DNA of 64,000 bases, from the NCBI RefSeq assembly GCF_900112265.1, contig NZ_FOLO01000006.1:62872-126871 (forward strand). Reading direction: 5' to 3'. The first letter of the stretch is position 1, and each line of letters begins with the position of its first letter. Positions 51,076-63,861 of this stretch are shown in pieces. The position numbers and the translations under genes were made by a program. Under the pieces are notes generated by a model. It made no database searches, had not been told where the DNA came from, and saw only the letters and a program-made list of their open reading frames with translations. Source of the DNA: Pseudoalteromonas denitrificans DSM 6059. Lineage in GTDB: Bacteria; Pseudomonadota; Gammaproteobacteria; Enterobacterales; Alteromonadaceae.

Positions 51076-52533
51076 CTAATCTTTATTTAAATTATATTTT
51101 TTCATTTTTTCAACTAAAGTCGTACGCCTCACACCTAGTATTTCAGCAGCCCTAGCAACAACAAAATCATGGCGCTCTAGCGCTTGAGTAATCAAGCTTA
51201 CTTCAAGTTCTGCCAAATACTCTTTAAGCTCGATTCCTTCATCGGGTAATAAACCCATAACAGCTTCAGTTTGAGAAAACTCTAGATCATCCTCATCTTC
51301 AGCATTGCCAGAAAAGCCACTACCAAATATTTCATTTAATGCCTGACGCTCTAATATTTCTTCAGGATATTCAGGAATAAAAGTATCTACCTCTAAGTGT
51401 TGATATTTTTTTGGTAAATCTTGTGCATCGATGACCTTTTCAGGAAACATAATTACCATGCGTTCAACTAAATTTGCAAGTTCGCGTACATTTCCAGGCC
51501 AAGCGTGTTCTTTCAAGTTTTCTAATGCTTGTTCAGTAAATTTTGCAGTATTACCACCTTGCTCACAATTTCTCTTCATTAACTCTTTTAATAATAAAGG
51601 AATATCATCTTTTCTTTCACTCAAGGCTGGGTTTTCAATCGGGAATACATTTAATCGATAATATAAATCTTCTCTAAATTGACCAGATTCTATCATCTCA
51701 TCTAGATTTCGGTGAGTCGCAGCAATGACACGAACATCTGCTGAAATTGCTTTAGTGCCACCCACTCTTTCATATGTGCGTTCTTGCAACACACGCAGTA
51801 ATTTCACTTGCATTTGAAGTGGCATATCACCGATTTCATCTAAAAATAAAGTCCCTCCCTGTGCAAGTTCAAACCGCCCTTTTCGTGCAGAAATAGCCCC
51901 CGTGAAAGCTCCTTTTTCATGACCAAAAAGTTCACTTTCAAGTAATTCTGCGGGAATAGCGCCACAATTAACAGGTACGAATGGACCTTTAGAACGTTTT
52001 GATAATAAGTGAACATTTCGCGCTACAACTTCTTTACCTGTTCCCGACTCTCCTAAAATGAGAACATTTGCATTAGTAATTGCAACTTGTTCAATTAGAA
52101 AGCGAATATTTTTAATTACAGAAGTTTCCCCAATTAAACCATCAAAATGTTTTGCGCCTAAAGTTGAGCTTCCACTTTTGGGGATCAAACGGCGATATTC
52201 TTGGCAATCATGAATGAGTTGAGTTGTAATAGCATAATTAAATGGTTCGCTAATCAAGCCTATAACATTTGCCATAGATAATAGGGGTTGAAGTGTTTCA
52301 CCTAATAATAGAAATGGAATTTCAGGGTTATCGCGGATCACAGCTTCATGATCTAAATGAGTACTGGCACCCAAGATAAAAGCTGTTACACAATCAACAG
52401 GTGTACAAAGAGCTTGGTAATTTTTTTCATTTACAATCTGATTTACTTCATCTATAAAAAGTAAAGAAGTTGATAATGCTAATGCACGACTTTGATTATC
52501 ATCAAATATTAAAATTTTTGATGGACCTGCCAT
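51076..52533 (-). CDS. flrA: FlrA (FleQ) master sigma-54 flagellar activator
   Basis: FlrA starts the flagellar cascade. The 485-residue product has an N-terminal FleQ-type degenerate receiver (about 1-115), an AAA+ domain with Walker A ([13 protein letters not shown]), GAFTGA and a Fis-type C-terminal helix-turn-helix ([25 protein letters not shown]). In FleQ/FlrA, c-di-GMP binding uses an Arg in an LFRS motif just before the AAA+ core and a second Arg 41 residues later. Here the first is Asp131 (HFDG) and the second, Arg172, is kept, so c-di-GMP control may differ. Confidence 0.95.
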
Positions 52534-52686: not shown

Positions 52687-54495
52687 CTATTGAAGAAGAG
52701 ATAATGCTAACTGAGGCATTTGATTTGCCTGAGCCAGCAAACTTGTTGCAGCTTGTTGCTTAATTTGAACTTTTGTTAACTCAGTCATTTCTGTTGCATA
52801 ATCTGTATCTCGGATACGACCTCGACTTGCTGTTGTATTTTCATTTATATTGGCTTGATTATTTACCGTATTCCCTAAACGATTAATCACGGCTCCCAAC
52901 TGAGCTCTTGAAGAATCAATAATCCTTAAAGCGTCGTCAGCAGCAAACACTGCAAACTGTGGAAAATTAACCACATCAATATAATCGAGACCTAAATTTT
53001 GAGTGCTAAAAGTACCAACACTGAAATCAATTGTTTCAAATGAACCGGCACCAACTTGAATTGATACATTTCGCCCACCACCGCCATTAATTTCAACTTG
53101 GTAGTTCTCTAATCTGGTTTCATCAATATTAGGATTCCCGCTTACATCCCAGCTTGAAGAATCAAAATCTGTTGCGTTATTATCATCATCTCCTGAAATA
53201 AATGTTTCTAAAAATGATTTTGCTCCAATTGTACCATCACCCAAGCCTTGCATGGTATTTTCTCTTCTTGGTGCTTGCGAACCATTTGCATCAAACCCTC
53301 CAAACGCTCCATTATCTAAATTTGTCAGATCCATATTGGTATTGATAAAGTCTTCAAATACTGTTGCTGCAGTAGATGGAGCTGCCGGAGCTGCTCCCAA
53401 AGCAGTAAATAGCCCAGCTTCATTTGCCCAAGTACCATTTGATGCAGTATTCAGTGCAGCATCTAGAGTCGCACCTGTTGCTAATTCAGCATTTAAGTCT
53501 TTCATACCGGCTTGCCCAATTTGACTATGTATATAACGCTGAATTATATAACCTCCTGAATAAGCTCCCGCAGTACTCACAACAGCAGCAGAACCTGCTT
53601 CAGCCTGAGCAGAAACCCATAAAGCAGCAATACCAACAGTACCACCGCCTCCAGCAGCGATATCGTTTGCAACTCTTGAATCAGCTCCTCGGATCGCTTC
53701 AGCAGACCCTTCTTTAAACCAGGCTGGAATATTAGCCCAGTCTTCAAAATTAGCCCCTTGGATCGCATGTACCATTTCGTGAAGTATCACTTCATCTAGC
53801 TCTAACCCTGCCGGATCACCATTTGGTAAATTTGAAGCATTAAAATCATCCAAATCTATTACCATAACTTGATTAAATGCAGCCCCCCCTGCTGTTGCTG
53901 CACTAACAAAAGCAGCAGTACCTCCAGCGCCATCCACATGTTCTAAATCAATTTTAAGAGTGCGATCTAAACCATCGAGACCTAACTGATCCATAATGAT
54001 AGATTCAGACTCAAATAACCAAGTTGAAGTCATTCCTTTAACTAGGTCTCTCTCAACTATATCTAGTAACCTACCACCCGTTGGACCAAATAGTTTTTTT
54101 CCACCAAATGTTGTTGTATCGTTCACTCTATCAATTTCAGTTTGTAATTGTGACACCTCTTGTTGAATTGCTTTTCGGTCATCATTGCTTAAAGTCCCAT
54201 TTGCAGATTGTAAACTTAAGTCTCGTATTCTATTTAAAGCATTAGTAACTTCAGCCATAGCGCCATCTGCTGTTTGAGCCATAGAAATACCATCATTAGC
54301 ATTTTTCATAGCAACAAAAGTACCGTTTACTTGAGAGGTGAGCCTATTTGATATTTGTAAACCCGCAGCATCATCTGCCGCTGAATTTATTCGCAGTCCA
54401 CTAGAAATTTTTTGTAACGACTTTTCTAACTGATTTGAACTGCCAGTTAATTGTCGCTGTAGAAATAACGATGAGATATTTGTTGTAATTCTCAT
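52687..54495 (-). CDS. Flagellinolysin: flagellin with inserted zinc metallopeptidase domain
   Basis: The 602-residue product has an intact flagellin N-terminal D0/D1 region (about 1-137, [34 protein letters not shown]) and C-terminal region (about 455-602, ending [12 protein letters not shown]). Between them, in place of the usual variable domain, is a gluzincin-type metallopeptidase. It has HEMVH (His239, Glu240, His243) and a likely third zinc ligand Glu262 in AWFKEGSAE, 19 residues on. This layout defines flagellinolysins, which assemble into proteolytic filaments. The start is the ATG at 54495, with AGG six bases upstream; a TTG at 54501 is less likely. A good FliA promoter precedes it. 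It is the only flagellin in the window. Activity and substrate are not visible from sequence. Confidence 0.93.
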
Positions 54496-54526: not shown

Positions 54527-54553
54527 ATATCGACCAATTTATATATAACTTTA
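54527..54553 (-). promoter_or_regulatory. Sigma-28 (FliA) promoter of the flagellin gene
   Basis: The minus strand has TAAAGTTA (546-553 of the 54 kb segment), an 11-base spacer and GTCGATAT. This compares well with the consensus TAAAGTTT-N11-GCCGATAA. The predicted start is about 25-30 bases before the ATG. Confidence 0.85.
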
Positions 54554-54657: not shown

Positions 54658-54673
54658 TGGCATTTTTTTTGCT
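54658..54673 (+). promoter_or_regulatory. Sigma-54 promoter of fliS
   Basis: TGGCA, eight T residues and GCT give TGGCATTTTTTTTGCT, with exact GG-GC spacing. The predicted start is near 54684, 26 bases before fliS, which has AGGAG upstream of its ATG. Confidence 0.8.
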
Positions 54674-54709: not shown

Positions 54710-55120
54710 ATGGCACATGTATCGATAAATAAATATCGCCAAGTTAGTATCAATAATGTTCAAGATATGGCCCCATATGAACAAGTTAAATTAATTTTAG
54801 TTAATATTGTAGGAAAACTCGCAGCTGTTAAAGGTTGTATTGAGCGAAAAGATATTGAGAAAAAAGGGCTGTATATTTCAAATTGTATTTCTCTTATTGG
54901 GGCATTACAAACAGCACTTAACATGGATGAAGGTGGTGAAATATCAGAAAATTTGGCCTCTTTGTATGAGTATTGTCAATTTAAGTTAGTTAACGCAAAT
55001 GTTGAAAATGACGTAGAAGGTATTATTGAAGTTTCAAATATAATAAAAAATATAAAAGAAGGCTGGGATGCTATCCCTCAAGATGTTAGGCAAAGTGCTC
55101 AGCAAGCGGCTACAGGTTAA
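54710..55120 (+). CDS. fliS: FliS flagellin export chaperone
   Basis: FliS binds the flagellin C-terminus in the cytoplasm and delivers it to FlhA. The 136-residue helical protein has the family start (INKYRQVSINNVQDMAPYEQVKLILVNIVGKLAAVKG-type) and the GGEISENLASLYEYCQFKLV helix. AGGAG lies upstream of the ATG. It is divergent from the flagellin gene; no fliD or flaG lies between or beside it here. Confidence 0.93.
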   Translation: MAHVSINKYRQVSINNVQDMAPYEQVKLILVNIVGKLAAVKGCIERKDIEKKGLYISNCISLIGALQTALNMDEGGEISENLASLYEYCQFKLVNANVENDVEGIIEVSNIIKNIKEGWDAIPQDVRQSAQQAATG

Positions 55121-55124
55121 AGCC

Positions 55125-55418
55125 ATGCTACAAACATTTGATCATGAACAACTTAAAATATTTATAAATGCATTAAAGTCCGCAATTGAAAACGGCGAAA
55201 ATGAAAAAGCGATAAAAGCTCAAGAAACATTAGATAATTATATACACCTAACATGTGGGAACAAAGAATACCCACAATCAAAAAAAACACTACAAGAAGC
55301 AAAATATTTAATCGATAATTTAAGTATTTATGCAACTGAAAAAAAACTGAATATAGGAAAGGAAATTATTCAAAAAAAACAGAATGCAAAAGCAATTGCA
55401 AAGTATCGTTCAGTTTAG
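55125..55418 (+). CDS. Small helical protein after fliS, FliT-like candidate
   Basis: The product is 97 residues and predicted all-helical (FDHEQLKIFINALKSAIENGENEKAIKAQETLDNYI). It starts 5 bases after the fliS stop. Size, charge and position fit the FliT/FlaI-type chaperones found after fliS, but I see no diagnostic motif. I reject the upstream in-frame ATG at 55068, inside fliS, in favour of 55125. Confidence 0.6.
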   Translation: MLQTFDHEQLKIFINALKSAIENGENEKAIKAQETLDNYIHLTCGNKEYPQSKKTLQEAKYLIDNLSIYATEKKLNIGKEIIQKKQNAKAIAKYRSV

Positions 55419-55476: not shown

Positions 55477-57643
<2,167 letters not shown>

Positions 57644-57647
<4 letters not shown>

Positions 57648-58489
57648 AGCTTGTTTTAGGGACTGTGCAACTAGGTCTTGATTATGGTGTTAGCAATCAA
57701 CTAGGCCAAGTCAGCGTAAACCAAGCTCATGAAATTTTAAAAACAGCACTAAACTTAGGGATAAATACTTTTGATACAGCTGCTGCTTATGGGAATTCAG
57801 AAACAATCTTAGGCTCATTTTTACCTCAAGATTCAAAAATAATTTCAAAATTACCTCCACAAGTAAATAATGCTCAAAGCATTGAGCAGCTATTAAATTG
57901 CTCTTTTGATAAACTTCAAGTTTCTCAACTACATGCTTTAATGTTACATGATGCTGATTTACTAATTAAAAACCCAGATATTCTATTGCAATTAAAAAAG
58001 CTAAAAAAAGATAAAAAAATAACTAAAATAGGTGCTTCATTTTATTTTCCTGAACAGCTTGAGGCTTGCCTTGAATTTGATTTAGATATAATTCAAATTC
58101 CAGCAAATATTTTAGATCAACGCTTTATTAAGGCAGGGTTACTTAACAAGTTAAAAGAGAAAGGTATTGAAATTCATGTACGCTCAGTATTTTTACAAGG
58201 CCTACTGTTAATGAATATAGCTGAGTTATCTGAATATTTTCACCAATTTAAAATCCTTTATAAACTAGATAAACATTTATCAAGTATTAGCCTAAATAGA
58301 TTAAGTGCAAGCTTAGGTTTTCTTAAGTCTATTCCACAAATTGACGCTTTAGTAGTTGGCTGCTGTCACTACAAAGAGTTAATACAAATAAAGCAAGCTT
58401 TTGAGCAAGCCCCCGCATTTAATGCGAGTGCATTTAAAAGCCAAGACTTAGCACTAATTTATCCTGCAAACTGGCCGCAAAGGAGGTAA
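57644..58489 (+). CDS. Aldo/keto reductase family protein
   Basis: The 281-residue TIM-barrel reductase has the AKR N-terminal signature (LVLGTVQLGLDYGVSN), the catalytic region FDTAAAYGNSETILG and a Lys in KIGASFYFP. It lies between pseC and the acetyltransferase and is overlapped by pseC. It is not part of the core pathway, so a role in tailoring the nonulosonic acid is only inferred. Confidence 0.88.
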
Positions 58490-58491
58490 CT

Positions 58492-59037
58492 ATGGCTGCA
58501 CTGACTCCATTTTGCCAAGGAGCTTCGATATATCTAAGAGAAGTTCGTGAAGAAGATATCACTGATGACTATTATAATTGGCTAAATGATCCACAAATAA
58601 AGCGAAACCTTGAGACAAGATATGCACCGCAATCAAAAAGCCAGATCCGTGAGTTTATAACCAGTAAACAAGGTGAACCTTTTTTTGCTATTTGCTGTAC
58701 CCATACCCACAAGCATATTGGTAATATAAAGCTCAATGTACTAAATGTTATTCATAGACGAGCCGATATCTCCTTACTCATTGGAGATAAAAGTTATTGG
58801 GGCAAAGGTGTTGCAACAGAAGCAATCTCTTTAGTCACAGACTTTGCGTTTTCACAGCTTAACCTTAATAAAATACAAGCTGGTGCCTACCATACTAATA
58901 TTGGCAGTATAAAAGCATTTGAAAAGTGTGGTTATGAACAGGAAGGTTATTTAAAAGAATTTACAGTATGTAATAATAAGCCGTTACATTTGGTTTATTT
59001 AGGTCTAACACGAACACAATATTACGCAGAAAAATAA
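58492..59037 (+). CDS. pseH: GNAT acetyltransferase, probable PseH
   Basis: The 181-residue GNAT has the acetyl-CoA loop (YWGKGVATEAISLV) and family strands (RRADISLLIGDKSYWG, NIGSIKAFEKCGYEQEG). In this operon it is the best candidate for N-acetylation of the PseC product, the PseH step. The assignment rests on context and fold, not on a diagnostic motif. It has a GGAGG-type site and overlaps the next start (TAATG). Confidence 0.78.
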   Translation: MAALTPFCQGASIYLREVREEDITDDYYNWLNDPQIKRNLETRYAPQSKSQIREFITSKQGEPFFAICCTHTHKHIGNIKLNVLNVIHRRADISLLIGDKSYWGKGVATEAISLVTDFAFSQLNLNKIQAGAYHTNIGSIKAFEKCGYEQEGYLKEFTVCNNKPLHLVYLGLTRTQYYAEK

Positions 59038-59711
59038 TGATATTAGCAATAATTCAAGCCCGAATGTCTTCAAGTAGATTACCAGGTAAAGTGCTAAAAC
59101 CAATTTTAGGTAAGCCCGTTTTAGCATTACAAATAGAGCGCACTTTAAGAAGTAAAAAAATAGATAAACTTATAATCGCTACAAGCCAAGAGCACAGCGA
59201 TACACCTATCGAAGTTCTGTGTCATAAAATAGGTATTGAGTGCTACAGAGGTGATTTAAATGATGTACTTAAGAGATTTAATGACGCCGCTGAGCATTAT
59301 AAAGCAACACATATTGTTAGATTAACTGGAGATTGTCCGCTTGTTGATCCTGAATTAATTGACCAAGTTATTACGCATCATATTAACGGAAATTATGAAT
59401 ATACGAGTAACATTTATCCTAGAAGCTTTCCAGACGGGTTAGATATAGAAGTATTGAGCAAGGAAACACTTACAAGGATAAATCAAACAGCAACAAGTGA
59501 CGAAGACAGAGAACATGTCACATATTTTATAGATAAAAATACAACACAATTTTTCATGGGTAATATTGCGCAACAAGATGATCACTCATTAATGCGCTGG
59601 ACATTAGATACCCAAGATGATTTCGATTTTATTTCTCAGGTTTATGCTGCTTTATATCATAAAAAACCTAATTTTACGACGCTAAATATATTGGATTACT
59701 TAGAATTATGA
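59037..59711 (+). CDS. SpsF-like cytidylyltransferase, probable PseF function
   Basis: This 224-residue nucleotidyltransferase has the N-terminal IIQARMSSSRLPGKVLKPI motif and RLTGDCPLVDPELID, diagnostic of the SpsF/COG1861 family. It probably activates the nonulosonic acid as its CMP sugar. It is SpsF-type and not the classic NeuA-like PseF. It is embedded in the pse operon and overlaps both neighbours. Confidence 0.85.
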   Translation: MILAIIQARMSSSRLPGKVLKPILGKPVLALQIERTLRSKKIDKLIIATSQEHSDTPIEVLCHKIGIECYRGDLNDVLKRFNDAAEHYKATHIVRLTGDCPLVDPELIDQVITHHINGNYEYTSNIYPRSFPDGLDIEVLSKETLTRINQTATSDEDREHVTYFIDKNTTQFFMGNIAQQDDHSLMRWTLDTQDDFDFISQVYAALYHKKPNFTTLNILDYLEL

Positions 59712-61000
59712 GTATGTTTTCATTTGAAAAATCAGAACAATATTTAAAAAGAAGCCTGAAAACTATCCCTTTGGGCTCTCAAACTTTTAGTAAAAGCCAA
59801 CTAGTTTACCCTCATAAAGTATCACCTTTATTTTTAGAAAGTGGTAAAGGTGCAATAGTGACTGACCCTGATGGCAATCACTATATCGATTTTGTAAATG
59901 GTTTATTGAGTGTCATGTTAGGTTATTGCGATCCTGATATAGATAAAGCAGTAATAGAGCAGCTGAGCAATGGTGTTTCTTTTTCATTACCTCATAGGCT
60001 TGAGTTCGAAGTCAGTGAACTCATTACACAATTAGTACCTTGCGCTGAGATGGTACGCTTTGGAAAAAATGGTACCGATGCAACATCAGCTGCAGTCCGT
60101 TTAGCCAGAGCATATACAGGGAAAGAGCATATTGCAGTTTGTGGTTATCACGGCTGGCAAGATTGGTATATAGGTTCTACGACCCGTGATTTAGGTGTTC
60201 CAGCATCCGTTAAACACCTGACTCACAAATTTGAGTTTAATAACTTAGCATCTTTAGAAAGCCTTTTTGCGAAAAACCCCAACAAAATAGCAGCTGTGAT
60301 CATGGAACCTATGAACGTAGCCTACCCAGAAAATGATTTTTTACAAAAAGCAAAAGAAATAGCACATAAAAACAATGCACTTCTCATTTTTGATGAAACT
60401 ATAACAGGTTTTAGATTCGATATTGGTGGAGCCCAAAGTTTATTTGATGTAATACCCGACTTAGCAACATTTGGTAAAGGCATGGCAAATGGTTTCCCCT
60501 TGTCAGCAGTCACAGGCAAAAAAGAAATTATGTGCTTAATGGAAGATATTTTTTATTCCGGTACTTTTGGTGGGGAAACATTATCTTTGGCGGCAGCAAA
60601 AGCCACAATCACAAAATTAAAAAATGAAGACGTTTTACAACATATCTCTCACATTGGCACTGAGCTTATAAATGGTTTAAAAGAGATCATTATTCAATCA
60701 AAAGCAGAGTCTCTCTTTCATGTTTCAGGTCATCCGGCATGGTCATTTTTAATGATGTCAGAAACTGACAAAGCCAGCCCACAACAGCTTTCCTCCTATA
60801 TGCAGCAGGAAATGCATCAATATGGACTGCTCTGCTCTGGCGCACATAATATTTCATTTTCACATACACAAGCACATATAGACACATTATTGGCAGCCTA
60901 TCAAAAAATCATCCCTAAGGTCGTAGAAATAAATAAATTAGGTAATATAGAAGCGTATTTTAAAGGCGTCGTAACACAACCTGTATTCAAGGTACGCTAG
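59708..61000 (+). CDS. Class III aminotransferase (glutamate-1-semialdehyde mutase-like)
   Basis: The 430-residue PLP enzyme has FGKNGTDATSAAVRLARAYTGK, LLIFDETITGFRFDIGG and the PLP Lys in LATFGKGMANGFP. This is the HemL-like branch, but context argues against haem synthesis. It probably aminates a sugar or an acyl group of the nonulosonic acid; the substrate is unknown. It overlaps the cytidylyltransferase gene and the PseG start. Confidence 0.88.
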   Translation: MSMFSFEKSEQYLKRSLKTIPLGSQTFSKSQLVYPHKVSPLFLESGKGAIVTDPDGNHYIDFVNGLLSVMLGYCDPDIDKAVIEQLSNGVSFSLPHRLEFEVSELITQLVPCAEMVRFGKNGTDATSAAVRLARAYTGKEHIAVCGYHGWQDWYIGSTTRDLGVPASVKHLTHKFEFNNLASLESLFAKNPNKIAAVIMEPMNVAYPENDFLQKAKEIAHKNNALLIFDETITGFRFDIGGAQSLFDVIPDLATFGKGMANGFPLSAVTGKKEIMCLMEDIFYSGTFGGETLSLAAAKATITKLKNEDVLQHISHIGTELINGLKEIIIQSKAESLFHVSGHPAWSFLMMSETDKASPQQLSSYMQQEMHQYGLLCSGAHNISFSHTQAHIDTLLAAYQKIIPKVVEINKLGNIEAYFKGVVTQPVFKVR

Positions 61001-62082
61001 TGAATTATGTTTTTAGATGTGATGCAAATACTCAAGTTGGACTAGGTCACTTCACGCGCTGCTTAACTTTAGCCAACGCGCTAAAGAAAATAGCAGCTTT
61101 AGATGAGACTAATATAAACTGTATATTTATCATGGCTGAACCTTCCGTTGACATAAACCTAAACATTAAAAAAAGTCAGCACCAATTACTAACAATTAAA
61201 ACGCCCTCAGATGGAGAGTTTAATAATAATATTGATGCAAATAATTGTATTGAAGAACTTAAAAATGAAAATATTACACCTAATTGGATCATTATTGATC
61301 AGTACCAACTCACACCTACTTGGTGGCAAAACTTTAATAAATCATCAACTAAACTCATGCTATTAAATGATCCTGGCCTTGCTATTGAAGGTATTGACTG
61401 CATTTGGGATCCTGCTGCAACTAATGCAGATGTTTATTCAGCCCTTAGCAACAGACCCATATTACTATTAGGTCCTGAATATATTTTACTAAGGCCGGAA
61501 TTTTTAAGCCAGACAAGAAGCTATCAAACTCCTGAAGTAAATGAAAAAATAAATATACTTATTAGCATAGGTGCGACAGATCCCCTTAATACAGGAGGGA
61601 AACTCATATATTGGTTATTAGAATTAATGCCTAACTTAAATATAACCCTGATGGGAACTTCATCAAACCCACATATTAAAAGATTAAAAAGCACCTTTAA
61701 AAATAGTATTAATTTTGAAATTAATAGCCAATGCATAGCCAAAATAATGACTAAACAGCACCTAATCATTACCGCAGCTGGCAATATGCTATGGGAAGCT
61801 TTTAGTTTAGGTGTTCCCTGTGCAATAGTTAAAACCTGTGAAAATCAGCAAAGAAATATAAACTTAGTTACAAATGTAATGGAAGGTATTTATTTAGGTG
61901 AAGAGCTCACGTTAAACAAGCAAGCCGTGGTACATACTTTGCTTACTCTAATCAAGCATAAAGACAAACTGAGCTTACTATCTGATCTCGCCCATAAACT
62001 ATGTGATGGTGCAGGTAGTCTCAGAGTCGCAAAATCACTTTTAGCGTCACAAAAGCCTAGCAAAGAAGGGAAACATGACTGA
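61000..62082 (+). CDS. pseG: PseG-like UDP-sugar hydrolase
   Basis: PseG removes UDP from the diacetamido sugar before condensation. The 360-residue GT-B-like product starts YVFRCDANTQVGLGHFTRCLTLA, typical of PseG/SpsG, and has LISIGATDPLNTGGK and AAGNMLWEAFSLGVPCAIVKTCENQ. The GTG start at 61000 overlaps the previous stop, and the end overlaps the methyltransferase gene. Confidence 0.88.
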   Translation: MNYVFRCDANTQVGLGHFTRCLTLANALKKIAALDETNINCIFIMAEPSVDINLNIKKSQHQLLTIKTPSDGEFNNNIDANNCIEELKNENITPNWIIIDQYQLTPTWWQNFNKSSTKLMLLNDPGLAIEGIDCIWDPAATNADVYSALSNRPILLLGPEYILLRPEFLSQTRSYQTPEVNEKINILISIGATDPLNTGGKLIYWLLELMPNLNITLMGTSSNPHIKRLKSTFKNSINFEINSQCIAKIMTKQHLIITAAGNMLWEAFSLGVPCAIVKTCENQQRNINLVTNVMEGIYLGEELTLNKQAVVHTLLTLIKHKDKLSLLSDLAHKLCDGAGSLRVAKSLLASQKPSKEGKHD

Positions 62083-62794
62083 AATATTACAAAGCAGAAG
62101 CGAATTCTGGCAGAAACGATGGAATAACATGGCCAAACAAAGCGGCCACTTTGCAACTATGGGCAGAAGTAACTATTCAATTAGTGATTATTTTGCTTAT
62201 ATATCCGATCTCGTCAAAGGTCTAGGTAATGTATCACCCGAAGATACTTTATTAGATGCTGCTGGTGGGTGTGGATATTTATCTTTGTATTTCTCCCCTT
62301 TAGTTAAGGAAATAGATTTATTTGATTATTCAACTGAGGCAATCAAACGGGCCAAAGAAGAGTGTAAAAACTTTAATAATATCAATGCATACGAAGACAA
62401 TTTATTATCACTAAACGTTACAAAATCTAAAAATAAACAATACGATAAAATACTTGTTGGTGGTGCGTTACAATATTTTGACTCTTATGATGAACTCAGC
62501 CTCATCCTTAAAAATATTTACGATGTCACAAAAAGGCAAGGGCGTGTATTCGTTAGCCAAACAACAGATCTTTCCCTTAAAGATGCCCATATAGCCTCTT
62601 ACGAAAGATTAGATTGGTCAAATGAAGATAAACAAAATGCGATAAAAGAAGAATTGAATCACAGATTTTGGGTCGACTATGAGAAACTTAAAAAAATAGC
62701 ATTACAATTAGGTTTTAGTGAATGCCATAAGATGCCAATCAATAAACAAATATTTCAATCAACTCATATGTTTGATTTCTATTTAATAAAATAA
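62075..62794 (+). CDS. SAM-dependent methyltransferase
   Basis: The 239-residue class I methyltransferase has motif I LLDAAGGCGYLSLYF. Post-motifs include IDLFDYSTEAIKRA and KILVGGALQYFDSYDELS. The substrate is unknown. Its place between pseG and pseI suggests O- or N-methylation of the nonulosonic acid or a linked amino acid group. It overlaps pseG by 8 bases. Confidence 0.85.
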   Translation: MTEILQSRSEFWQKRWNNMAKQSGHFATMGRSNYSISDYFAYISDLVKGLGNVSPEDTLLDAAGGCGYLSLYFSPLVKEIDLFDYSTEAIKRAKEECKNFNNINAYEDNLLSLNVTKSKNKQYDKILVGGALQYFDSYDELSLILKNIYDVTKRQGRVFVSQTTDLSLKDAHIASYERLDWSNEDKQNAIKEELNHRFWVDYEKLKKIALQLGFSECHKMPINKQIFQSTHMFDFYLIK

Positions 62795-62805
62795 AGGCTC
62801 TAATA

Positions 62806-63861
62806 ATGAATCAAGTTGTAATTGGCAATAAAATAATCGCAGCCGATCAACCTCCCTTCATCATAGCTGAAGCAGGAATTAACCATAATGGTGATTTAGC
62901 AACAGCATATAAAATGATTGATACAGCAAAAGCCGCAGGCGTTGATGCAGTTAAGTTTCAGACTTTTAAAGCTGAAGAATTTTGTGGTGATGCAAAACAA
63001 ATGTTTACTTATCAATCTCAAGGTAAAGAAATTACAGAGCCCATGTTAGATATGTTTAAGCGCATGGAGTTCAGTGTAAAAGAGTGGCATCAAATTAAAT
63101 TGTATTGTGATAAACAGAAGATTATGTTTCTTTCAACCCCGCAAAACCCTTCTGATCTAAAGTTACTATTAGAAATTGGCATAGATGCAATTAAAATAGG
63201 CTCTGATGACCTCTCAAATATTCCTTTATTAAAAACATACCGCGCAGCTAACCTTCCTATGATAATTTCTTGTGGAATGGCAGATATGGCCGACGTATAT
63301 TTAGCATTAGAAACGTTAAATGCTTTAGATGGTTACCCTGTTATATTATGTTTATGTACATCCCAATACCCCACGCCAGCTGAAGATATCAACCTCGAAA
63401 AATTAACAACCCTTAGGAATGCATTTCCCATGCTTACCCTTGGTTTTTCAGACCATTCTCAAGGTATTTTGGCATCTTCTTTAGCCGTAGCTTATGGCGC
63501 ATGTTTATTTGAAAAACATTTTACCTTAAGTAATGATATGCCTGGCCCGGACCATTGGTTTTCAGAGAACCCAGAATCATTAAAACAATGGCGAGATGCA
63601 ATTCATACAGCCCATATAATGAAAGGCAGTGGAATCATCAGACCATCAGTTGCCGAACAAGATATGCGCACTTTAGCGCGTCGCAGCATAGTAGCGCTAT
63701 CAGATATCAAAGAAGGTGATACATTAGACATTAAAAACATTGGTCTAAGGCGACCAGGTAATGGATTGCCTCCAGCCCTTTTTGAAAATATATTAGGTTT
63801 AAAAGCCAATAAAAGTATAAAGAAAGGCGACTTACTAGCCATGGGGAATATGGAAAATTAA
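62806..63861 (+). CDS. pseI: Pseudaminic acid synthase (NeuB family)
   Basis: This enzyme condenses phosphoenolpyruvate with the PseG product to form the nine-carbon acid. The 351-residue NeuB-type barrel has IIAEAGINHNGDL, VDAVKFQTFKAEEF, FSTPQNP-type loop (FLSTPQNPSDLKLL), TLGFSDHSQG and KHFTLSNDMPGPDH. The C-terminal SAF domain is present (RRPGNGLPPALFENILGLKA). Pse is preferred to Neu or Leg from the pseB/C/G context. Confidence 0.9.
   Translation: MNQVVIGNKIIAADQPPFIIAEAGINHNGDLATAYKMIDTAKAAGVDAVKFQTFKAEEFCGDAKQMFTYQSQGKEITEPMLDMFKRMEFSVKEWHQIKLYCDKQKIMFLSTPQNPSDLKLLLEIGIDAIKIGSDDLSNIPLLKTYRAANLPMIISCGMADMADVYLALETLNALDGYPVILCLCTSQYPTPAEDINLEKLTTLRNAFPMLTLGFSDHSQGILASSLAVAYGACLFEKHFTLSNDMPGPDHWFSENPESLKQWRDAIHTAHIMKGSGIIRPSVAEQDMRTLARRSIVALSDIKEGDTLDIKNIGLRRPGNGLPPALFENILGLKANKSIKKGDLLAMGNMEN

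Follow-up and report, generated by a model that had tools for sequence, protein, structure and literature searches.

The gene flaMP, at 52687–54495 on the reverse strand of the window (the whole analyzed stretch of 64,000 nucleotides from Pseudoalteromonas denitrificans DSM 6059, contig NZ_FOLO01000006.1), encodes a flagellinolysin, a flagellin whose two conserved ends enclose a metallopeptidase, with a complete zinc-site motif. It is likely that the protein carries a working-type zinc metallopeptidase as a surface domain and joins the filament late, as a minor copolymer with the structural flagellins FlaA and FlaB, cutting peptides at the filament surface. The product is a further case of a known, rare, and already published protein family, as an earlier note on this DNA had recognized; the family has its own NCBIfam model (NF033876 “flagellinolysin”), was described in 2017 (PMC5595980), and was studied in H. 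gracilis in 2020 (PMC7643111), with a Pseudoalteromonas tunicata member included, according to the available parts of these papers. No paper on this particular P. denitrificans protein was present among the literature matches listed for flagellinolysins, proteolytic flagellins, and Pseudoalteromonas flagellins. The NF033876 match, which confirms family membership (Table 1), spans residues 110–533 at an E-value of 2.6e-89 and thus places the HEMVH motif far beyond a chance occurrence. Between the flagellin ends, the Pfam family Peptidase_MA_2 is matched weakly (28.2 bits, below the 32.4 cut-off), and Peptidase_M9 (PF01752), which is found in 19 of 60 aligned flagellinolysins, gave no match to the product at E ≤ 0.001.

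Table 1. Coordinates, in window positions, of flaMP, its domains and motifs, and the flanking features.
Feature	Coordinates	Strand	Evidence
flrA/fleQ-type sigma-54 activator, syntenic marker of the slot	51076..52533	(-)	PF06490 + PF00158
Flagellinolysin gene flaMP, 602 aa	52687..54495	(-)	NF033876 300.4 bits (cut-off 205); Flagellin_N + Flagellin_C
Flagellin C-terminal domain, residues 518-601	52693..52944	(-)	PF00700 E 2.3e-23
Metallopeptidase domain, residues ~137-404	53284..54087	(-)	domain model + fold matches
WFKEG, residues 259-263, with putative third zinc ligand Glu262	53707..53721	(-)	translated frame
HEMVH zinc-binding motif, residues 239-243	53767..53781	(-)	translated frame
Flagellin N-terminal domain, residues 3-136 (D0/D1)	54088..54489	(-)	PF00669 E 2.9e-40
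Sigma-28 (FliA) type promoter of flaMP, TAAAGTTA-N11-GTCGATAT	54527..54553	(-)	13/16 letters of the assumed consensus
Sigma-54 (RpoN) type promoter of divergent fliS	54658..54673	(+)	10/11 letters of the assumed consensus; 1/300 shuffles as good
fliS, flagellin export chaperone	54710..55120	(+)	TIGR00208 72.7 bits, cut-off 53.75
Nonulosonic-acid (pseudaminic type) operon	55501..63861	(+)	NCBIfam PseB, PseC, PseG above cut-off; Pfam

Both the coordinates and the translation agree with the earlier reading of HEMVH at residues 239–243 and of WFKEG with Glu262, 19 residues past His243, between intact flagellin ends. When the best 80 of 300 flagellinolysin relatives from the named genomes searched were kept, the complete flagellin–peptidase–flagellin make-up was recovered in 71 of them with our own profiles and the motif; the remaining nine comprise a truncated copy (L074), a frame lacking the N end (L079), a frame ended by a contig edge (L104), a protein that has HExxH and both flagellin ends but escaped the WF pattern (L115), and five Bacillota proteins whose ends were not both detected by these profiles. 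His239, Glu240, His243, and Glu262 are invariant throughout an alignment of 60 sequences (the window protein and 59 relatives drawn from the 80 kept loci), in which Pfam recognizes Flagellin_N in 60/60 and Flagellin_C in 56/60 proteins.

Structure prediction is in keeping with the gluzincin zinc site that had been proposed for this protein, the motif being complete, its ligands invariant, and the modeled fold gluzincin-like. Modeled at full length (pLDDT 85.1), the protein shows a normal flagellin core and finds its best matches among filament structures at Z ~22 (9n8h of Vibrio cholerae: Z 22.6 with an rmsd of 3.1 over 267 residues), while the peptidase modeled alone (residues 137–400; pLDDT 92.3, pTM 0.90) places HEMVH on one helix and Glu262 on the following one. 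The best 50 matches of the peptidase model in VIA-align 2 are M9 collagenases, M30 lugdulysin, and M1-type peptidases at Z 11.1–13.4, including 8jt1 (Z 13.4, rmsd 3.7 over 203 residues) and 4ar1 (Z 12.8, rmsd 4.0 over 210 residues); Foldseek alone returned no match at E ≤ 0.001, its best being 9.2e-3 with M1 peptidases ranked first. Searched against solved structures, the single peptidase sequence matched nothing at E ≤ 1, and a 55-row peptidase profile gave 10 weak matches (best E 0.011), namely six collagenases, one M1 aminopeptidase, and three unrelated proteins. In profile alignments, the zinc-site motif of the family aligns with WFEEGSAE of clostridial collagenase T (E 0.016), and both collagenase T and an M1 peptidase share the motif order of flaMP. 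The fold of the peptidase domain, as modeled, is thus that of a gluzincin of collagenase-like type, shared with M9 collagenases (clostridial and Vibrio), M30 lugdulysin, and M1 aminopeptidases at identities of 9–19%. To our knowledge, none of these enzymes has flagellin ends, and their substrates are other than those of flagellinolysin.

The closest functional parallels are C. haemolyticum FliA(H) and H. gracilis HgrFlaMP, which like flaMP combine flagellin N and C ends with a gluzincin peptidase in the hypervariable region, an HExxH motif with a downstream Glu, and a collagenase-like fold; their activity has been shown by experiment, and that of the flaMP product is predicted from sequence and model. 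Peptidase activity, dependence on calcium and zinc, and presence in filaments beside structural flagellin have all been published for relatives. A marine host would suit a calcium-needing flagellinolysin, as sea water contains ~10 mM calcium. In the available text on HgrFlaMP, full activity required 10 mM CaCl2 and 10 µM ZnCl2, and the full-length protein had only minor activity on casein, which counts against our preferred explanation (PMC7643111). In C. haemolyticum, flagellinolysin accounts for as much as 10% of the filaments, which cleave peptides once purified, as far as the accessible part of the study reports (PMC5595980). The gene contexts differ, in that HgrFlaMP lies among non-flagellar genes in the portion of the account at hand (PMC7643111), whereas flaMP lies between flrA and fliS by a glycosylation island. 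Within the genus, the P. tunicata flagellinolysin (UniProt A4C6E0) resembles the window in that a proteolytic flagellin occurs alongside a structural one, and an inactivated variant of it served, together with its structural flagellin, as a substrate in the same partly available study (PMC7643111); two flagellins were found to be biofilm-enriched in P. tunicata proteomics, the available part of which does not name the proteolytic one (PMC12153261).

The note had given weight to flaMP being the only flagellin in the window, and on the literal point it was right, as every other frame of 180 aa or more lacks one or both flagellin ends by our own profiles; the observation is not telling, however, since a search of the P. 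denitrificans genome (6.09 Mb, 130 contigs) uncovered two intact structural flagellins, FlaA and FlaB (539 and 541 aa; C39:147651 and C39:149479), on the same contig, and their position ~30 kb from flaMP makes its solitude an accident of the window. FlaA and FlaB adjoin FlaG (PF03646) and, by eye, genes resembling FlgL and FliD. The same search turned up one broken flagellin (L009:4172-5764, contig C24), with a stop in frame and, ~3.7 kb off at the contig end, a transposase-like frame (by eye), as well as a 240-aa mini-flagellin (L010:6302-7024, contig C48) near two chemoreceptor-like genes (by eye), for which no good sigma-28 or sigma-54 site was found. The strong version of the note's claim, that flagellinolysin is the main subunit and the fiber mostly enzyme, could draw on the good sigma-28 site and the lack of a second flagellin in the window; it is rendered very improbable by the two full-length flagellins on the contig, FlaA with a perfect sigma-54 site, by the two or three long structural flagellins that each of the other three genus members with an intact or truncated flagellinolysin also keeps, and by the minor share in C. 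haemolyticum filaments cited above (PMC5595980).

Co-assembly with these structural flagellins is plausible, because the N and C ends of the flaMP product are most similar to those of the resident FlaA (64% identity over 228 columns), and such ends would allow copolymerization with both FlaA and FlaB. Transcribed from a sigma-28 promoter, with FlaA served by a sigma-54 promoter, flagellinolysin would join late and as a minor subunit, and would therefore lie mostly away from the cell-proximal end of the filament. There, His239, His243, and Glu262 would bind the zinc and Glu240 would serve as the base, and peptides would be cut at the filament surface. We infer the late and minor incorporation, the position along the filament, and the activity of this very protein.

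The promoter argument rests on matches to the strings that we take to be the sigma-28 and sigma-54 consensus. The FliA promoter anticipated in the note is present upstream of flaMP (Table 1); FlaA has a perfect sigma-54 site (11/11) and FlaB a sigma-28 site of 13/16. At the flaMP spacing, a sigma-28 score of at least 13 was attained in 0/725 and 4/725 shuffled flagellin upstream regions in two runs over slightly different stretches, and one of 300 shuffles of the flaMP upstream region alone reached 13 when spacings of 10–12 were allowed; a sigma-28 score of 12 was reached by 22/725 shuffled regions and a sigma-54 score of 9 by 16/725. Among the structural flagellins of the Pseudoalteromonas loci fetched, sigma-54 sites of at least 9/11 precede 11 of 21 and sigma-28 sites of at least 13/16 precede eight of 21. 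For sigma-28, the three intact Pseudoalteromonas flagellinolysins reach 13/16, 13/16, and 12/16, and none of the three has a sigma-54 site of at least 9/11; the short flagellins of the fetched loci reach 13 for sigma-28 in 0/21 cases and 9 for sigma-54 in 1/21. We infer from these promoter-like sites a putative split between early FlaA and late flagellinolysin, and the low abundance proposed for the latter has the same basis. Such late control is perhaps particular to Pseudoalteromonas, as only 16 of 72 flagellinolysins from outside the genus reach 13 for sigma-28 (31 of 72 reach at least 12).

For this protein, the picture of an enzyme-bearing fiber that acts on host or particle proteins has no more support than for the family, members of which have been proposed to act on outside proteins (PMC7643111, available part), and that site of action meets an obstacle in P. 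tunicata, which has such a flagellin and is reported as sheathed. A rival reading, which contests the site of action and not the identity of the protein, holds that the flagellum is wrapped in outer membrane and that the peptidase faces the sheath lumen, acting on stray flagellin or sheath proteins, or outside only once the sheath breaks or is shed; with a closed sheath, the enzyme would face the lumen and not host or particle proteins. We consider this reading rather unlikely, with a chance that is still appreciable. A review, as far as available, lists several sheathed Pseudoalteromonas, citing papers on Alteromonas denitrificans, P. tunicata, P. piscicida, and P. luteoviolacea (PMC7175336), a TEM legend in the accessible portion of a P. 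tunicata biofilm study names a sheathed flagellum, with possible flagellar sheaths in the matrix (PMC7821379), and P. tunicata, reported as sheathed, has a flagellinolysin (PMC7643111, in part), all of which would be in keeping with a lumen-facing enzyme; conversely, Pseudoalteromonas spp. are listed as unsheathed in the available section of another database (PMC8191957). The denitrification-type genes of the window's genome, described below, would fit P. denitrificans, which is among the species that the review cites. The word “sheath” does not occur in the main texts of PMC5595980 and PMC7643111, and none of the papers searched contains both “sheathed” and “flagellinolysin”. Four papers mention proteolytic flagellins as well as a sheath; of these, in the parts available, PMC8931119 treats the sheath mainly as one made of flagellin outer domains, and PMC7821379 carries the flagellinolysin paper in its reference list only. 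It is also unlikely, and a little more so, that in sheathed Pseudoalteromonas the flagellinolysin is a protease on a filament inside a membrane tube, clearing escaped or unfolded flagellin or being packaged for shedding into the biofilm; late sigma-28 control would in that case load it onto the distal filament, nearest the shedding tip. P. tunicata and this locus together provide a marine setting that joins two questions, that of the late minor subunit and that of access to the outside, and either answer would help to choose between the roles proposed for flagellinolysins. The sharper question is the purpose of a protease in a flagellum reported as membrane-wrapped in a close relative.

The sugar-modification operon next to flaMP is real, its PseB, PseC, and PseG products passing their NCBIfam cut-offs, and it includes pseB, pseC, an aldo-keto reductase, an acetyltransferase (by eye), a pseF-like gene, an aminotransferase, pseG, a methyltransferase, and a NeuB/PseI-like gene (of these, the pseF-like and NeuB/PseI-like products stay under their cut-offs). 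The special significance attached to it was, however, not borne out. An flrA match at E ≤ 1e-180 was obtained in 43 of 45 genus genomes searched, that of the window included, and 25 flagellinolysin-free relatives were picked from the other 42 for a survey of the slot over stretches of 9.5–16 kb; an ordinary short flagellin occupies the slot in 18 and no flagellin in seven. A close pseB was present within the fetched stretch in 17 of the 25 (16 of these 17 with the short flagellin), so the operon is tied to the place and not to the enzyme. In G017, the nearest relative by flrA (86%), the interval from flrA to fliD is free of both flagellinolysin and glycosylation genes. Two Maf-type flagellin glycosyltransferases (PF20157; L007:8259-10307 and L008:1508-3526) were noted in the island between fliS and fliD. 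A 116-aa frame at window positions 55068-55418, without Pfam match, overlaps the end of fliS; several relatives likewise have a small frame after fliS, whose similarity is weak or absent and which is FliT-like by position only.

The ancestry of the gene was approached through separate trees of the flagellin ends and of the peptidase. In the N+C tree (119 rows, including 44 of the 75 flagellinolysins at hand, with near-copies left out), a starred branch (97/93) splits off 26 short flagellins, with all 44 flagellinolysins on its other side. A second starred group, a clade (99/98) of 43 of the 48 structural flagellins, contains no flagellinolysin. The window flagellinolysin, whose own place is not starred, lies outside both groups, which makes a recent insertion into a resident Pseudoalteromonas gene unlikely; a recent peptidase insertion into the slot's short flagellin, or into FlaA or FlaB, was likewise unsupported, as this tree keeps the flagellinolysins apart. 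The remaining five structural flagellins fall among the flagellinolysins, so that in other lineages a local insertion or exchange may have occurred. Three of L091 group with the flagellinolysin of their own genome (96/89, starred), and two of L069/L073 stand beside theirs (82/53, weak). An Aquibacillus short flagellin also joins its flagellinolysin (100/93), and these three groupings oppose a flagellinolysin lineage that is wholly separate everywhere.

In the tree of the peptidase (64 rows without near-copies), a starred clade (99/94) unites the window, the truncated copy of Pseudoalteromonas sp. NBT06-2, and four Ferrimonas sequences; G144 and G145, the two other genus genomes with an intact flagellinolysin (either of which may be P. 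tunicata), stand apart from it. The nearest intact peptidase domains are those of Ferrimonas (L061-L063, L081; 57–63% identical). The Ferrimonas flagellinolysins differ in the N+C tree, where they are grouped with those of Shewanella and Colwellia. In clade tests, the peptidase data reject a single Pseudoalteromonas flagellinolysin clade (p 0.0119; 0.0223 with the truncated copy) and likewise a single clade uniting Ferrimonas with Shewanella and Colwellia (p 0.00055; 0.0336), these p-values being lenient because the groups were chosen after viewing the tree; the N+C data do not reject a clade of window and Ferrimonas (p 0.161; 0.141 with the NBT06-2 N end). With this last clade standing on the N+C data, an exchange of peptidases between flagellin scaffolds, also considered, was not shown. 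Judged from these sequences, Pseudoalteromonas seems to hold two flagellinolysin branches, and the gene to have decayed in at least one species. The GC content, 33–36% across flaMP and its flanks, does not point to a recent import.

Flagellinolysin is sparsely distributed in the genus. Intact copies over the cut-off occur in three of 108 Pseudoalteromonas genomes (those of the window, G144, and G145), and in a fourth, NBT06-2 (G003:C124; NZ_NQMR01000021.1), the copy is cut short to 264 aa, ending a little past HExxH. This rarity and truncation could suggest that flaMP is itself a decaying gene without present function, a reading that its intact frame, promoter-like site, and full complement of catalytic residues make extremely improbable. 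The truncated copy (L052:2738-3532) has kept a near-perfect sigma-28 site (15/16) and is followed by a methyltransferase-like and then an oxidoreductase-like gene (by eye). In L051 (G442), the flagellinolysin frame has only 309 aa and adjoins a transposase-like frame (by eye), so that it looks interrupted by a mobile element. In G144 and G145, in contrast to the window, a short flagellin lies directly beside the flagellinolysin, and the peptidases belong to another branch; such short flagellins of ~250–270 aa were observed in Pseudoalteromonas (L054:7967-8719 and L057:8405-9160) and at the Psychrosphaera loci L069-L071. This neighbor, absent from the window, is possibly a partner subunit.

Another genus of the same family supplied a protein that bears on whether the flaMP product might be mainly an exported or shed protease and not a filament part, a role suggested for the family in the available text of PMC7643111. 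The protein, of 410 aa (L060:7554-8786, G426:C16), passes the flagellinolysin model with 237.8 bits (cut-off 205), yet Pfam detects no flagellin in it; what it has instead is a new N-terminal tail, as expected of a peptidase freed from flagellin. The other five of the six genomes matched among 295 in that search have, by eye, at least partial flagellin ends. The peptidase domain can therefore live alone, and passing the NF033876 cut-off is by itself no guarantee of a flagellin. In flaMP, however, both flagellin ends are complete and are modeled as a normal D0/D1 core, and a mainly exported protease is quite improbable here.

A minor observation concerns the metabolism of the organism. Its genome contains a nosZ-type propeller domain (G000:C59:73273), found in two of 108 genus genomes, and four stretches of cytochrome-d1 (nirS/nirF type) genes (G000:C58:31125-37956); among the four genomes searched for the latter, there were none in G006 and G003 and a fragment in G017. 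On the basis of these two gene types, the organism looks like a denitrifier.
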